From NCBI RefSeq assembly GCF_014207185.1, contig NZ_JACHCP010000001.1:1-64000 (forward strand): 64,000 bases of DNA. The letters are read 5' to 3'. The position numbers and the translations under genes are program-made. Source of the stretch: Rhodanobacter sp. A1T4. GTDB lineage: Bacteria; Pseudomonadota; Gammaproteobacteria; Xanthomonadales; Rhodanobacteraceae. The notes under the pieces were generated by a model. It did not search any database. It worked only from the letters and a program-made list of their open reading frames with translations, and was not told where the DNA came from. Shown in pieces: positions 278 to 47,980 of the stretch. The first letter of the stretch is position 1; every line of letters starts with the position of its first letter.

Positions 278-1162
278 ATGAACGACAAGCTGCTGGCGCT
301 CCGACTTTTCGTGCGCGTTGCGCGCACGGGAAGCTTCTCTGCTGCGGCGCGAGAACTTGACCTTTCACAGCCGTCAGTATCGCGGATCATTGCGGCGTTG
401 GAGGAAGACGTTGGCGCGGCCTTGGTTACCCGCACGACGCGCGCTGTCGCGCTGACTGACGTGGGCAACGACTACCTGACTCGTGTCGAAGCGATCCTGT
501 CGTCGCTTGAAGAAGCTGATCACACTGCTCGTGGATCGCAGGAACTTCGCGGGTCATTACGTGTTGCCATGCCTGCAAGCTTTGGCGTGCGCGAAATCAT
601 CCCCCTGATGCCGGGCTTTCTTGCGCGCCATCCTTCGCTAAACGTCAGCTTATTGATGAGCGATCAACGGCAAGACACCATCAAGGAAGGTGCCGATGTC
701 GCACTTCGACTCGGTGACTTGGACGATTCGAGTGCCACCGCACGCGTCATCGGTCGGACGCAGCGGTTAATTGCGGCGTCGCCGCGTTATCTAGAGGAGA
801 AGGGCACGCCCGAGGCGCCCGAAAACTTGGCCGTCCATACGGCTATCGTCGGGCCTGCCGGGACGAGCTCCGGAACATGGTCCTTTCAGAAGGATGGTCA
901 AAGCGTATCGACCCGCATCAATTGTCGCCTGACTGTTTCCTACAACGAGGCCGCAGTAGCCGCCGCTGTCGCGGGAATCGGCGTCGTGAATACATCTCTG
1001 TGGGGCTGTCGCGCCGAACTCGCCAGCGGCGCGCTGATTCGGCTGCTTCCCGACTGGAAGATCGGTGAGGTCGAAGCCCACGGCCTGTTCACCCCAGGCC
1101 GACGACCTAAGCCCTCGGCACGCGCGCTGGTCGAGTATCTGATCGCGGAGCTTGGTCGCTAG
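278..1162 (+). CDS. LysR family transcriptional regulator
   Basis: This 294-residue protein has the normal LysR length and layout. An N-terminal winged helix-turn-helix (residues about 4-62, LRLFVRVARTGSFSAAARELDLSQPSVSRIIAALE) is followed by a substrate-binding domain of the PBP2 type. It would act in the cytoplasm as an effector-responsive DNA-binding regulator. The ATG follows a 250-base gene-free leader. The nearest genes are a convergent small monooxygenase and a co-directional SDR, and the regulator probably controls one of them. The effector is unknown. Confidence 0.92.
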   Translation: MNDKLLALRLFVRVARTGSFSAAARELDLSQPSVSRIIAALEEDVGAALVTRTTRAVALTDVGNDYLTRVEAILSSLEEADHTARGSQELRGSLRVAMPASFGVREIIPLMPGFLARHPSLNVSLLMSDQRQDTIKEGADVALRLGDLDDSSATARVIGRTQRLIAASPRYLEEKGTPEAPENLAVHTAIVGPAGTSSGTWSFQKDGQSVSTRINCRLTVSYNEAAVAAAVAGIGVVNTSLWGCRAELASGALIRLLPDWKIGEVEAHGLFTPGRRPKPSARALVEYLIAELGR

Positions 1163-1268: not shown

Positions 1269-1571
1269 TCAGCCAGGCAATTTCGCCGCGAGCAGATCGA
1301 TCTTCTCAATGTTCGGTGGGGTGCTGAGCAAGGCAGCTGCGTTGGCCATCAATGCAGCCGCGATCGGGCCTCGCAGGTGGGCTTGACGACCTTCCTCGTC
1401 CGCAAAGGCGTCGAAAACGCCAAACGTCGAAGGGCCAAACTGCAACGCAAACCAAGCGACGGTGCCCAACTCGGCATTGGCGAGCGGCAGCGCGCTGGCC
1501 AGGAAGGCGGCGACGGCGGCCTCTTGGCCTGGCTTGGCTTCGAGGCGGACAAACAGGGCAAATTTGGTCAT
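1269..1571 (-). CDS. Antibiotic biosynthesis monooxygenase (ABM) domain protein
   Basis: This 100-residue single-domain protein has the ABM/YgiN pattern: it begins TKFALFVRLEAKPGQEAAVAAFL and carries a later beta strand FGVFDAFADEEGRQAHL. Family members form dimeric ferredoxin-like barrels and often oxidise quinols or polyketide aromatics without a cofactor. The substrate cannot be read from sequence. It sits between a LysR gene and an SDR gene, on the opposite strand to both, and a purine-rich AAGAGAAG lies upstream of the ATG. A second ABM gene is at 23.5 kb. Confidence 0.8.
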   Translation of the reverse strand: MTKFALFVRLEAKPGQEAAVAAFLASALPLANAELGTVAWFALQFGPSTFGVFDAFADEEGRQAHLRGPIAAALMANAAALLSTPPNIEKIDLLAAKLPG

Positions 1572-1816
1572 GGAATGCTTCTCTTGAAGTGAAGGTCACG
1601 GCTCTGCGCATCCGTGGTCGTAGGGCTTGCTCCGATGTGGACGATTCGTCCCTCTATCGACGGCCCAATGTTTGACATGTTCGCTCAGTTTGAGAGCGGG
1701 GAGCCATTCATTTGACGAATAAGTCTTAGTTGTCGACGCAGCTACTCACGCGTCCATCGATCGACGACAGTCCATCCAGACGCCACTGCGGCGCCGTCAA
1801 TTCAGGACACAAATCC

Positions 1817-44019: not shown

Positions 44020-44543
44020 TGTTTATGCGTATATTAAAATCCACCGACGATTCCCTTGCTCATCGTCTTATCGCCGCCATCATGCCGCTGATCAAGGGCA
44101 GTCAGGTCGAAGTGATGTCGGCAACGGCCGACTTCGAGTTCACGATGACCCAGCTGCGGATGTTGTTCGTGCTTGAGCATGCCGGGTGCGACATGGCCGT
44201 CAATGAGTTGGCCGAACACGTGGGGCTATCCATGGCCGCCACTGGGCGTGCAGTGGACATCGTGGTTCGTACTGGCCTGCTGTCGCGGCGCGAGGACGAG
44301 AGCGACCGACGCATCAAGCGCATCGGGTTGACCGAGTCCGGGCGCAAAGCGATCGTGCAGATCGGCCAGGCGCGTCGCCGCGCGGTCGAGTCGTTCGTGG
44401 CCAAGCTCGATGGCGCCGAGCGCGCCGCGCTCGATGCTGCTGTCGCCACGCTGGGCGCGCTTACCTCCCTGCACCTTCCTCTCCCTGGCGGAATTCACGC
44501 AGCTCCATCGTGCGCCGTCACGCCTTCCAAAGTATCGAAGTGA
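44019..44543 (+). CDS. MarR family transcriptional regulator
   Basis: This 174-residue protein has a MarR winged helix (residues about 40-110, FEFTMTQLRMLFVLEHAGCDMAVNELAEHVGLSMAATGRAVDIVVRTGLLSRREDESDRRIKRIGLT). The GTG at 44019 follows AGGA at a spacing of seven; the ATG at 44025 is possible. It is followed after eight bases by a DHA2 efflux gene, so it probably represses an efflux operon that responds to its substrate. Confidence 0.9.
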   Translation: MFMRILKSTDDSLAHRLIAAIMPLIKGSQVEVMSATADFEFTMTQLRMLFVLEHAGCDMAVNELAEHVGLSMAATGRAVDIVVRTGLLSRREDESDRRIKRIGLTESGRKAIVQIGQARRRAVESFVAKLDGAERAALDAAVATLGALTSLHLPLPGGIHAAPSCAVTPSKVSK

Positions 44544-44551
44544 GTTCTCCC

Positions 44552-46054
44552 ATGTCCCCATCAAAAGCCCCTGTCGAGGCCACGCTCGATCCGCGCCTGC
44601 TGCGTATTGCGGCGGTGGTCATTCTCGGCACCTTCATGTCGATCCTCGATACGACGATCGTCAATGTCGCCATCAAGGAATTGTCGAAAAGCTTCACTGC
44701 GCCGCTGGCGACGATGCAGTGGATTTCGACCGGCTACATGCTCGCGCTGGCCACGGTGATTCCGCTCACCGGCTGGGCAGCCGATCGCTTTGGCACCAAG
44801 CGCCTGTACATGGCCTCGATCGGCATGTTCCTGCTGGGCTCGGCGCTGTCCGGCGCGGCCTGGTCGGCCGGCTCGCTGATCGTTTTCCGCGTGCTGCAGG
44901 GCCTGGGTGGCGGCATGATCATGCCCGCCGGCATGACGATATTGACCCACGCCGCCGGCCCGAAGCGGATGGGTCGAGTCATGGGCATCGTCGGTGTGCC
45001 GATGCTGCTGGCGCCGATCATCGGACCGATTCTCGGCGGTTGGTTAGTGGACGATGTGTCTTGGCGCTGGATCTTTTTCGTCAACCTGCCGATCGGTGCG
45101 ATTGCGCTGTTCGCCGCGCAGCGTGTGTTCGAGCGCGACGAGCCCAAGCCGCATCATTCGCTGGATTGGCCCGGGCTGCTGATGCTGTCGCCGGGTCTGG
45201 CGATCTTCGTTTACGGGTTGGCGGAGACCGCTGCCGGTGCGGGCCTGGATTCCGTGGGCGGTGGTGGTGCGGTGCTGCTCGGGCTGGCGCTGGTGATCGC
45301 CTTCGTGCTGCATGCGCGTGTCCGGAACGGTGCGCTGATCGACGTGAAGATGTTCGCGCAACGGGCTGTTGGTGCGCCGGCGCTCACGGTCTTTCTGTTC
45401 TGTACGGCGTTCTTCGGTGTGGCGCTGTTGATGCCGCTGTATTTTCAGGTGGTGCGCGGCGACTCGGCGCTGCATGCGGGTCTGCTGCTGGCCGCGCAAG
45501 GTATTGGCGCGATGATCTCGATGCCGATTGCCTCGCGTCTGACCGACAAGCTCGGTGCCCGTCGCATCGTAGTGGTGGGTCTGTCGCTGGTGGCGCTGGG
45601 CATGTTGAGCCTCAGCCAGATCTCGGACACCACGACCTTGTTGCAGGTCGAGCTGACACTGTTTGTGATGGGCCTGGGCATGGGTTCCACCATGATGCCG
45701 GCGATGAGTGCCGCGCTCTCCTCGATCGAGCGGCATGCGGTGGCGCGTGTCACCGCTGGGCTCAATGTGCTGCAGCGGGTCGGCGGATCGATCGGCACCG
45801 CGCTGCTGGCAGTGGTGCTGTCGCATCAGCTGGCTGTGGCCATGCCGGCAGGTCAAAGTGCGACCTTGCATGTTGGTCACGGCGTTCCCGCAGGCGCGCC
45901 TGGCCAGGTGGTTCCGGCGCTGGGCGCCGCGTTCGGTCACACGTTCATGTGGTCGTTCGCGCTGGTCATCTGTGCGTTGATTGTTGCGCTGTTTATCCGC
46001 CGGAGCCACGTGGATACGGCGGCGGCCAGTGCAGCCCATGTGATCGTCGAATAG
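44552..46054 (+). CDS. DHA2 family (EmrB/QacA-type) MFS drug efflux transporter
   Basis: This 500-residue inner-membrane protein has about fourteen hydrophobic segments, as in the DHA2 family. It carries motif D1 in helix 1 (LDTTIVNVAI), motif A (GWAADRFGTKRLYM) and motif C (VGVPMLLAPIIGPILGGWLVDD). It should expel hydrophobic drugs using the proton gradient. The ATG at 44552 was chosen because it starts eight bases after the MarR stop. No EmrA-like membrane fusion protein is present. Confidence 0.93.
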   Translation: MSPSKAPVEATLDPRLLRIAAVVILGTFMSILDTTIVNVAIKELSKSFTAPLATMQWISTGYMLALATVIPLTGWAADRFGTKRLYMASIGMFLLGSALSGAAWSAGSLIVFRVLQGLGGGMIMPAGMTILTHAAGPKRMGRVMGIVGVPMLLAPIIGPILGGWLVDDVSWRWIFFVNLPIGAIALFAAQRVFERDEPKPHHSLDWPGLLMLSPGLAIFVYGLAETAAGAGLDSVGGGGAVLLGLALVIAFVLHARVRNGALIDVKMFAQRAVGAPALTVFLFCTAFFGVALLMPLYFQVVRGDSALHAGLLLAAQGIGAMISMPIASRLTDKLGARRIVVVGLSLVALGMLSLSQISDTTTLLQVELTLFVMGLGMGSTMMPAMSAALSSIERHAVARVTAGLNVLQRVGGSIGTALLAVVLSHQLAVAMPAGQSATLHVGHGVPAGAPGQVVPALGAAFGHTFMWSFALVICALIVALFIRRSHVDTAAASAAHVIVE

Positions 46055-46125
46055 CTTGAAGCCCGCATAGCCTTTGAGGCGCAACGCCGATTTGCGCGCC
46101 ATAAATTCCCGATCCGTCGTTTCCA

Positions 46126-46155
46126 GGCCAGTCACCTGACAGTGGCTGGCCTTTT
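46126..46155 (+). terminator. Terminator of the MarR/efflux operon
   Basis: A 10-bp stem with one mismatch (GGCCAGTCAC/GTGGCTGGCC, arms 46126-46135 and 46142-46151) is followed by TTTT, about 72 bases after the transporter stop. Confidence 0.8.
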
Positions 46156-46268
46156 CACGTTTGCAGATCGAGGTTTTCCGTCACCTGGCCGGCGATATCG
46201 CTTGCTGCGTCAAGCAAACCGTGATGTCCGCTACGCCTGTCCTTCCGTAAGGCACTGTATTACGAACA

Positions 46269-46299
46269 TAAAAAAACCCGCAGAGGGGAGTCTGCGGGT
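46269..46299 (-). terminator. Strong intrinsic terminator
   Basis: Stem ACCCGCAGA/TCTGCGGGT (arms 46291-46299 and 46276-46284), followed on the minus strand by TTTTTTT. It ends either the candidate small RNA or a long 3' UTR of the gene ending at 46526. Confidence 0.92.
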
Positions 46300-46405
46300 T
46301 CGGGGGGTTCCATCTAGTTGCGTGGCAGAGGAGGGGAGCCTTAGCCACGCGGTGGGAGCGATGTCTCACGACATGGGGTTAATGTACTCGATGGTTCGTT
46401 AATGG
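46269..46405 (-). ncRNA. Candidate small RNA with C-rich loops (sX13-like architecture)
   Basis: Within the 471 bases between two convergent genes, the minus strand holds a run of hairpins: a short ATGTC/GACAT stem (46361-46374), a 7-bp stem GCGTGGC/GCCACGC (46320-46350) with loop TAAGGCTCCCCTCCTCT, and a 9-bp terminator stem (46276-46299) with loop CTCCCC. CUCCC also occurs unpaired near 46353-46358. Repeated C-rich loops are the hallmark of the Xanthomonas sX13 RNA, which pairs with G-rich ribosome sites. It could instead be the 3' UTR of the Hsp70-like gene. Confidence 0.5.
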
Positions 46406-46525
46406 AGCGTGAGCGAAAGTAAGAAAATTCGCCGGTCTGATATGTTTCGGCGGAACTTATGGCCTGCGTAGTCATCGCGTACGGTTTCCTGAGTGGCAAA
46501 ACCACGCCAAGCGCAGCAACCTTGT

Positions 46526-47920
46526 TCAACGATCAGCCTCATCCGCTGCCACCGCCAGCCCCGATACCACACCCAGTGAGGGGTCGCCCTGTACCAGCGG
46601 TATCTCTGGAAAGCAGGCTTGCACGCGTTCGCGGATCTGTGGTGAGCGCGACGTGCCCCCAGTGATGAAGACACTGGCAGGGAGTTCATCGAGATTGCTG
46701 CGTACGGTGTCCAGCGTGCGTTCCATCTGGTTGAGGAAGGTATCGATGGCGGCATGGAAATCCGCGTTGCGGAGTTCCACCGCCAGGCCGGGTTCGATGA
46801 AATCCAGTTCGGCGCGATAGTGTGGAGATGCGCTCAGAGTGATCTTGCTGCGCTCGGCGACCTGGTTGAGTCGTGTGGTGGCACCGGCCTCCTGCAGCGC
46901 GCGCAGGCGTGAACCGTAGGGCTCGTCGACAAGGCGATAGTCCTGCTGGCGAAACTCGCGCTGCTTGGGCAGGTTGTGCACACTGGCGGCGTCGACGTAG
47001 CGGTGCGCCGGCATGCTGATGATGTCCTTGCCCAGTTGCGGCATGAAGCTGTGCAGGCTCACGTTGACGTCGAGATCGGTGCCGCCCTTGGGCAGGCCCC
47101 AGCTGCGCGCGATGTGCGGCGCTTCGCCGCCGCCTAGTTGCGCATGCGCCACGTCGGTGGTGCCGCCGCCGATATCGACCACCAGCGCGTACTGCCGATC
47201 CGCCAGACTCTTGTGATAATGCATCGCTGCGGCCGCGGGTTCTTCCAGAAAGCTCACGCTGTCGAAGCCGGCGGCCGCCGCCGCTTCGCGCAGAATCTCG
47301 ATCGCCTGCAGTGAACCTTGGGCGCCCATCGAGCTACGAAATTCCACTGGTCGTCCGATGACTGCACCGCGCACGGGCGTGCCGAATTGTTGGCTGGCGG
47401 TGAGGCGAATGTGTTCGATGATGTGCGTGGCGATATGCACAATGACCTTGCGCACCTGTGGGTCGAGCCTGTAACCGAACATCGACTTGGGCGATTCGAT
47501 CAGGTTGCCGCCGCCGCTCTCCAGATAGCCTTCCACCGCGGCCTCACCGAACAGCGCATGCTGAAAGCTGGCGACCGATGCGGTGGCGTTGCGCGTCTGC
47601 TCTTCCATCCATTGTCGACGCACCACGCGCAGCGCTTCACTGCGCAGTTCGCTCTCGCTGCGCGACACCGGTGCCTGTCCGCGTGCGCTGGTCGCGGCGG
47701 TGAGCTGACGTTGCTGTTGTCTGGCCAGACGCAATTGATTTTCTACCTGCGCGTCGAGCGCCGGCGTCAGCGTGAAGTCGCTGGGGTCGGGAACCAGTTC
47801 CGGGAAAAATACCGCGGTACGAAACTGCTCGGCGTTGCCGAAGCGTACAAGCTTCAGTTCGCCGTCGATGATGGCGGCGGCAGCCGAGTAGCTGGTGCCG
47901 AAATCGATACCGATATGCAT
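46526..47920 (-). CDS. Hsp70-like ATPase (YegD-type)
   Basis: This 464-residue protein has actin/Hsp70 ATPase motifs: phosphate-1 GIDFGTSYSAAA (4-15), EEPAAAAMHYH, phosphate-2 DIGGGTTDVA and the adenosine motif FITGGTSRSPQI. It ends soon after the nucleotide-binding domain, so the substrate-binding domain and lid of DnaK are absent, as in YegD. It would be a cytosolic chaperone-like ATPase with an unknown client. The ATG at 47920 was chosen because it starts MHIGIDFG. It is convergent with the efflux operon. Confidence 0.9.
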   Translation of the reverse strand: MHIGIDFGTSYSAAAAIIDGELKLVRFGNAEQFRTAVFFPELVPDPSDFTLTPALDAQVENQLRLARQQQRQLTAATSARGQAPVSRSESELRSEALRVVRRQWMEEQTRNATASVASFQHALFGEAAVEGYLESGGGNLIESPKSMFGYRLDPQVRKVIVHIATHIIEHIRLTASQQFGTPVRGAVIGRPVEFRSSMGAQGSLQAIEILREAAAAAGFDSVSFLEEPAAAAMHYHKSLADRQYALVVDIGGGTTDVAHAQLGGGEAPHIARSWGLPKGGTDLDVNVSLHSFMPQLGKDIISMPAHRYVDAASVHNLPKQREFRQQDYRLVDEPYGSRLRALQEAGATTRLNQVAERSKITLSASPHYRAELDFIEPGLAVELRNADFHAAIDTFLNQMERTLDTVRSNLDELPASVFITGGTSRSPQIRERVQACFPEIPLVQGDPSLGVVSGLAVAADEADR

Positions 47921-47980
47921 AGGGTCACGAGATCGCTGCATGGCATCCCGTCATTATGCCGGCTGCGTCGGCAATGTTCG

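Follow-up and report, generated by a model that had tools for sequence, protein, structure and literature searches.

The stretch of DNA analysed here (the window) covers positions 1 to 64,000 of contig NZ_JACHCP010000001.1 of Rhodanobacter sp. A1T4. Between the convergent genes for a DHA2-type MFS transporter and an Hsp70-like protein lies a 105-nt unit on the minus strand (about 46374-46270), which is predicted to be the transcript of a small RNA (sRNA) gene and is termed the C-type RNA below. By reading, the transporter gene seems to be served by a separate terminator (46126-46155), which the terminator scan did not list. The features of the region are as follows.

44510-46054, plus strand: DHA2-type MFS transporter gene, convergent with the side of the RNA
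46270-46374, minus strand: predicted C-type sRNA transcript, placed by a covariance-model match and conserved ends, with a putative start site
46274-46301, minus strand: terminator hairpin 3, loop CUCCCC at 46285-46290, followed by a U-run to 46270
46302-46307, minus strand: C-run CCCCCC, mostly single-stranded
46309-46315, minus strand: conserved AGAUGGA, common to the short D-type RNAs described below
46320-46350, minus strand: hairpin 2, loop CUCCCCU at 46332-46338
46354-46358, minus strand: free CUCCC, unpaired probability 0.70-0.81
46361-46374, minus strand: hairpin 1, AUGUC-GUGA-GACAU, GNRA-type loop, at the 5' end
46381-46386, minus strand: -10-like element TACATT (TATAGT in Dyella-type relatives), from an alignment of 28 distinct upstream regions
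46398-46413, minus strand: direct repeat CTCAC-N5-ATTAAC (consensus GTYAC-N5-ATTAAC) with an 11-bp period, in the place of a -35 box
46526-47941, minus strand: Hsp70-like gene, its stop codon 151 nt before the putative RNA start

The initial annotation of this locus had described three minus-strand hairpins in a convergent region ending in a strong terminator, which agrees with both the sequence and the predicted fold. Its reading of two exposed CTCCCC loops and a third, free CUCCC is likewise borne out, since both loop motifs have unpaired probabilities of about 1.0 and the free motif has the value listed above. The interval given there, 46269-46405, contains the RNA, but it also takes in part of the promoter region, and the likely transcript is about 46374-46270. 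The 137-nt element has a minimum free energy (MFE) of -47.4 kcal/mol, whereas dinucleotide shuffles average -26.2 (sd 2.9), which gives a z of -7.3, and none of 200 shuffles did as well. Among 2000 further dinucleotide shuffles, 64 had a single CTCCCC apical loop and one had two or more; two CTCCCC motifs occurred anywhere in 41, and none reached the MFE of the element. The terminator of the RNA was the sole listing in a scan of 46050-46560, which by itself proves little because shuffled sequences gave 0.5 listings on average.

Comparison with relatives supports the fold. RNAalifold on a first MAFFT alignment misplaced hairpin 2 (covariation term -0.21, with the 3' arm misaligned), and the structure used here comes instead from the fold of one sequence, applied to 12 more homogeneous sequences. 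Because this choice favours the structure, slid and shuffled controls were applied. In the 12 sequences, six of the ten pairs of hairpin 2 are changed on both sides, double-changed cells number 14 versus 3.6 after shuffling, and when the partners are slid, the share of cells that are paired falls from 96% to 38-52%. Double-changed cells numbered 189 versus 47 in an alignment of 54 distinct rows fitted to the model; such a fit is biased in favour of the structure, and a few of the rows are chance matches. The loops behave differently from the stems: among 33 distinct transcripts, picked for matching a pattern that covers hairpin 1, UCCC and the terminator stem, loop 2 has CCCC in all 33 and the last 20 scored bases (loop 3) have it in 31. 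Constant loops on varying stems are what should be expected of loops that act by base pairing. The loop of hairpin 1 is GUGA or GAGA in 29 aligned rows, for which the selecting pattern demanded G-N-GA; in divergent relatives GCGA and altered loops are also present. The element thus combines the structural hallmarks of the C-rich-loop (anti-Shine-Dalgarno-like) sRNA class, namely a free-standing unit, a terminator, covarying stems and conserved unpaired C-rich loops.

Two other readings of the same letters were discarded. A coding role has no sign in its favour: the frame from the 5' ATG reads ATG TCG TGA, and the alignment contains one-base length changes. An outer helix between UCCCAYC and GAUGGA is plausible in a few Dyella-type folds, but 28 of the 33 distinct sequences place C opposite A at one position, and at another position seven have A-C or A-A and one C-U. 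The AGAUGGA element itself hardly varies in C- and D-type RNAs, and no partner for pairing with it is supported.

The distribution of the RNA was examined at several levels. BLAST with the 137 bases gave matches in 12 of 41 genomes, namely its own, ten others of the genus (a genus grouping in which one member is named Dyella sp. S184) and one of another family (G036), where the match covers the terminator only. A short-pattern scan of named genomes returned 26 stretches, 22 of which hold the element; their labels are Rhodanobacter, Dyella, higher groups containing these and one Eremiobacteraeota MAG (L051). In the matches from Streptomyces, Mycobacterium and Komeilibacteria the rest of the element is missing, and one further stretch (L048) is cut at its end. 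We also built a covariance model (R1) from 12 relatives with the window sequence left out, and the RNA of the window scores 113.9 bits against it. At E 0.001, R1 matches 61 of 233 genomes of the family, or 58 after dropping three in which the sole match looks like a chance one or a D-type RNA, a count that takes in the weak matches of G145, G151 and G161 not read by eye. Among the tail matches that were read, L116, L118 and L120 look like chance terminators and L119 is a D-type RNA. The order-level search matched 40 of 398 genomes, of which 38 belong to Rhodanobacteraceae and the two outside it give marginal matches (about 6e-4). A plasmid search for the element gave no match. Within the genus, 23 of 45 genomes have no credible match, so the C-type RNA would be dispensable unless strict filters or incomplete genomes hide copies. 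One genome (G113) has three matches, and on its contig C15 (L121) about 2.6 kb separate two C-type RNAs, one of which has an altered hairpin 1 and -10 element.

Upstream of the RNA, the 28 distinct regions share, with single-base departures, the layout GTYAC, 5 bases, ATTAAC, 11 bases, TACATT or TATAGT, 6-7 bases, RNA start; a 29th region was left out because its -10 element did not fit the pattern. A -35 consensus is absent, and a consensus promoter scan listed nothing at this RNA, the -10-like element included. Direct repeats with an 11-bp period that end 11 bases before the -10 element are typical of activators of the OmpR/PhoB type. The promoter is probably activator-dependent, as far as its sequence can tell. 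With 0-2 mismatches, the upstream motif has 12 matches in 41 genomes, ten of them at the C-type RNA and two in other families. Allowing up to three mismatches in 25 same-genus genomes gave 41 matches, compared with 57 for a reversed control, and no other convincing sites of a regulon emerged from this search. One three-mismatch match, TTTGCTRTTCATTAA at G000:C10:242655-242674, is also seen a single time in each of many same-genus genomes.

Whether the RNA has a gene of its own can be judged from its neighbourhoods, compared here at 31 loci, some of which are one genome twice. If the RNA belonged to the Hsp70-like gene as a stable 3' UTR or terminator, without its own promoter, the shared strand and the gene stop 151 nt upstream would be accounted for, as would the gene order kept in L054 and L056, where the Hsp70-like gene adjoins the RNA as it does in the window. 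However, the upstream region and the RNA stand beside other genes elsewhere: a second neighbourhood is common to L039, L045 and L046, a third neighbour is common to seven further loci, in L045 the RNA is preceded at about 170 nt by a glutamine synthetase frame and followed after about 1.1 kb by an NtrC-type regulator, and in L049 a DEAD-helicase frame follows the RNA. Conservation begins at the promoter region and not at the gene end, and it ends sharply beyond the promoter region and the RNA. A coding extension of the Hsp70-like gene is disfavoured by the one-base length changes mentioned above. Since the upstream region and the RNA travel together while their surroundings change, and recur at loci lacking the Hsp70-like gene, we rejected the 3' UTR as the main reading and regard it as very unlikely; readthrough from that gene, which the initial annotation had named as one finding that would overturn it, is made improbable by the same loci. 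Across Rhodanobacteraceae, conservation of the promoter region and transcript persists in differing neighbourhoods, the stems covary and the C-rich loops are fixed, so the RNA is very probably the product of an independent sRNA gene.

Two further explanations concern what such an independent RNA does and to which family it belongs. Its main job could be to bind a protein (RsmA/CsrA-type or another regulator) through AGAUGGA, with the C-rich loops secondary. AGAYGGA is kept between the C- and D-type RNAs, and because its pairing with UCCCAYC is unsupported, with C opposite A in 28 of 33 sequences, it may be constrained in some other way. Against this, the AGAUGGA linker has one GGA only, whereas known RsmA sponges carry many, and few unpaired parts are as constant as the C-rich loops; we consider protein binding as the main job unlikely. 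The RNA could also be this genome's orthologue of sX13, whose design the initial annotation had found matched here, naming an Rfam scan and synteny with sX13 loci as checks. The C-rich-loop design does hold, and the Rfam model RF02232 (sX13) aligns with the RNA from end to end. The identity does not, for the score of that alignment is 19.2 bits, far under the gathering score of 50, and hairpin 1, with its GUGA loop, leaves two C-rich apical loops instead of three. According to PMC3771888, sX13 homologues always lie downstream of polA. The neighbours of the RNA in the window are the Hsp70-like and MFS genes, and a distinct RNA occupies the polA position in the same genome (G000:C14:2793-2904, minus strand, 151 nt past the polA stop), where RF02232 gives 43.1 bits, also below 50. 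Although R1 scores this polA-linked RNA at 17.8 bits, a chance terminator elsewhere gets 21.4. On the Rfam score, the synteny and the separate polA-linked RNA, we rejected sX13 orthology, for which the remaining probability is very small indeed.

The preferred reading is that of an independent, trans-acting sRNA gene of Rhodanobacteraceae with its own conserved promoter and an RNA of about 105 nt, whose C-rich loops pair with GGGGAG-like sites and block translation; taken as a whole, we hold it to be likely. The initial annotation had proposed a prediction of G-rich targets. The pattern AGGGGAG-N4-9-ATG occurs 24 times in the genome, compared with 10 times for the reversed pattern, and 15 of the 24 sites open frames of at least 90 codons, including hfq and three TonB-dependent receptors. 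Hfq is encoded in the genome; the leader of its gene reads AAGGGGAGAAUAAGAAAUG, with the ribosome site AAGGGGAG at G000:C9:91285-91302. In a comparison of 30 of 39 hfq loci, AGGGGAG was found in 19 of the 22 Rhodanobacter genomes examined and GGGG in all 22, while among eight loci of other families none has AGGGGAG and five have a GGAGA-type site. The hfq site is, however, unlinked to the presence of the C-type RNA, occurring in eight of ten genomes with the RNA and 11 of 12 without it. The longest perfect complement of a loop (nine bases), GGAGGGGAG before ATG, has two matches, both at tiny frames (15 and 20 codons). A stand-alone receiver gene with an AGGGGAG site (L175) was considered as PilH-like, pilH being an sX13 target, and was rejected, its neighbours being a transporter and an S4-domain gene, with no pil genes.

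What is known of hfq in Xanthomonas bears on these sites. As reported in PMC3771888, sX13 loop 2 and a G-rich hfq motif are both required for repression of Hfq::GFP, and that motif lies downstream of the AUG. Compensatory mutants of sX13 left the weakened fusions unchanged there. Because the Rhodanobacter site is equally common in genomes without the C-type RNA and fits the polA-linked RNA as well, and because the Xanthomonas motif is placed differently, hfq supports at most a shared target code and no private target. A GGGGAG ribosome site is an ordinary one, and it would also match the genome's sX13-like RNA. As for the mechanism, a promoter that is probably activator-dependent would give a compact RNA of about 105 nt, whose stability would come from its terminator hairpin and from the GNRA hairpin at its 5' end. 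The CUCCCCU and CUCCCC loops and the free CUCCC would start pairing with GGGGAG-like Shine-Dalgarno regions, and this pairing would keep several mRNAs from being translated, among which hfq is the strongest single candidate. We infer the transcription and start site of the RNA, its target pairing and its repressing action from sequence alone.

Besides the C-type RNA, three other short RNAs with C-rich stretches were recognized in the same genome. The A-type is the polA-linked, sX13-like RNA (L024), which lies between polA and uvrD. Its same-genus copies are preceded by AACTTT, about 16 bases and then TCAAA, TCTAA or ACTAA, a layout that we take to be reminiscent of an RpoE/ECF-type promoter. 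The B-type (G000:C1:664094-664178, L025) has, like the C-type RNA, two CCUCCCCUGG stretches, and its 5' stretch CGCCGUGACGGCG could form a hairpin; its sequence and upstream region differ from those of the C-type RNA, and its next downstream frame encodes a nicotinate phosphoribosyltransferase. The D-type (G000:C1:564936-565017, L136) matches the C-type RNA in the order of its parts, i.e., a 5' GUGA hairpin, UCCC, a C-rich stretch, AGAUGGA and a terminator, but it is shorter (about 70-80 nt), its terminator loop is not C-rich and its upstream region is different. When R1 was applied at these given loci, D scored 25.2, B 20.9 and A 17.8 bits, and two sX13 loci of Xanthomonadaceae 14.6 and 13.0. 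When R1 was run over the complete genome, with E values up to 10 allowed, it listed the C-type RNA and one ordinary terminator (21.4 bits) only, without A, B or D. The resemblance of A and B to the C-type RNA is thus at chance level and may reflect shared composition, while D, by R1 scoring, is slightly above chance. Common descent of the C- and D-type RNAs is suggested mainly by the shared order of their parts.

The occurrence of the D-type RNA was compared with that of the C-type RNA in 45 same-genus genomes, leaving out matches to R2 weaker than E 1e-10. The C-type is present in 22 and a strong D-type in 20; six genomes have both, 16 only C, 14 only D and nine neither. The Fisher p of 0.036, uncorrected for kinship and incomplete genomes, is only a hint of an association. 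Eight of 12 D-type RNAs have an upstream TGTGA-N6-TCAC, which is CRP/Clp-like (L126, L127, L128, L132, L133, L138, L141 and L145). It begins 28-33 bases before the D-type hairpin in seven of these, a position that would fit repression, and L126 also has a more distant match; the D-type copy of the window's own genome is without it. In L004 (G005:C102), a C-type RNA (1531-1634, plus strand) and a D-type RNA (about 520-590, minus strand) lie about 0.9 kb apart and divergent, and G020 and G203 each have two D-type matches a few hundred bases apart.

A wider interpretation is that Rhodanobacteraceae possess a sibling set of anti-Shine-Dalgarno sRNAs, at least four in this genome (A to D), that use one C-rich code for GGGGAG sites including that of hfq, so that separate promoter inputs would act through one common translational brake, which would also adjust the amount of the RNA chaperone, with C and D as duplicates of one GNRA-capped ancestor moving with its promoter. 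R1 places only D above chance, and slightly, which weakens this interpretation; we offer it tentatively, as a possibility that is doubtful at present. A second, differently located RNA family in the sister family Rhodanobacteraceae, together with its siblings, would indicate that covering G-rich ribosome sites with loops is a regulatory solution that recurs there and no peculiarity of a single RNA. It would also make two questions testable, namely how labour is divided among RNAs with one target code and how old the control of hfq by C-rich loops is in the order.

No Rfam family reached its gathering score anywhere in the 64-kb window. Under relaxed limits, five weak matches fell on the element, including alpha-r14 (19.7 bits), sX13 (19.2 bits) and anti-hemB (14.9 bits). 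A limited search of open-licence PMC literature found, among the matches listed, neither a description of this RNA, an absence that weighs little, nor a C-rich-loop RNA of this order other than sX13. The alpha-r14/NfeR1 RNA of Rhizobiales (RF02344) is described in PMC10746234 as having hairpins that expose an anti-Shine-Dalgarno C-rich motif, and the hairpins of the C-type RNA are likewise predicted to expose a C-rich, anti-Shine-Dalgarno-like motif. In alpha-r14, the motif is CCUCCUCCC and is found in all three hairpins, whereas the C-type RNA has CUCCCCU and CUCCCC in two of three. The score of 19.7 bits is far from the gathering score of 58.8, the C-type motif is not CCUCCUCCC, and alpha-r14 is alphaproteobacterial, unlike the RNA of the window.

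The closest known system is sX13, for which PMC3771888 reports C-rich motifs in all three loops. The C-rich loops of sX13 repress mRNAs with 4G motifs, for which Hfq is not needed. Like sX13 (115 nt), the C-type RNA (105 nt) is small and structured, with three stem-loops ending in a terminator; it has 4C/5C motifs in apical loops, and pairing with G-rich motifs near translation starts is proposed for it as well. Unlike sX13, it lies away from polA and has another upstream region, a GUGA-capped hairpin 1, and a free CUCCC and an AGAUGGA linker, and hfq, a demonstrated target of sX13, is only a predicted one here. By sequence, the C-type RNA resembles sX13 in design and is not a member of its family. 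It would represent a new family within the known kind of C-rich-loop sRNAs, and apparently one of a set.
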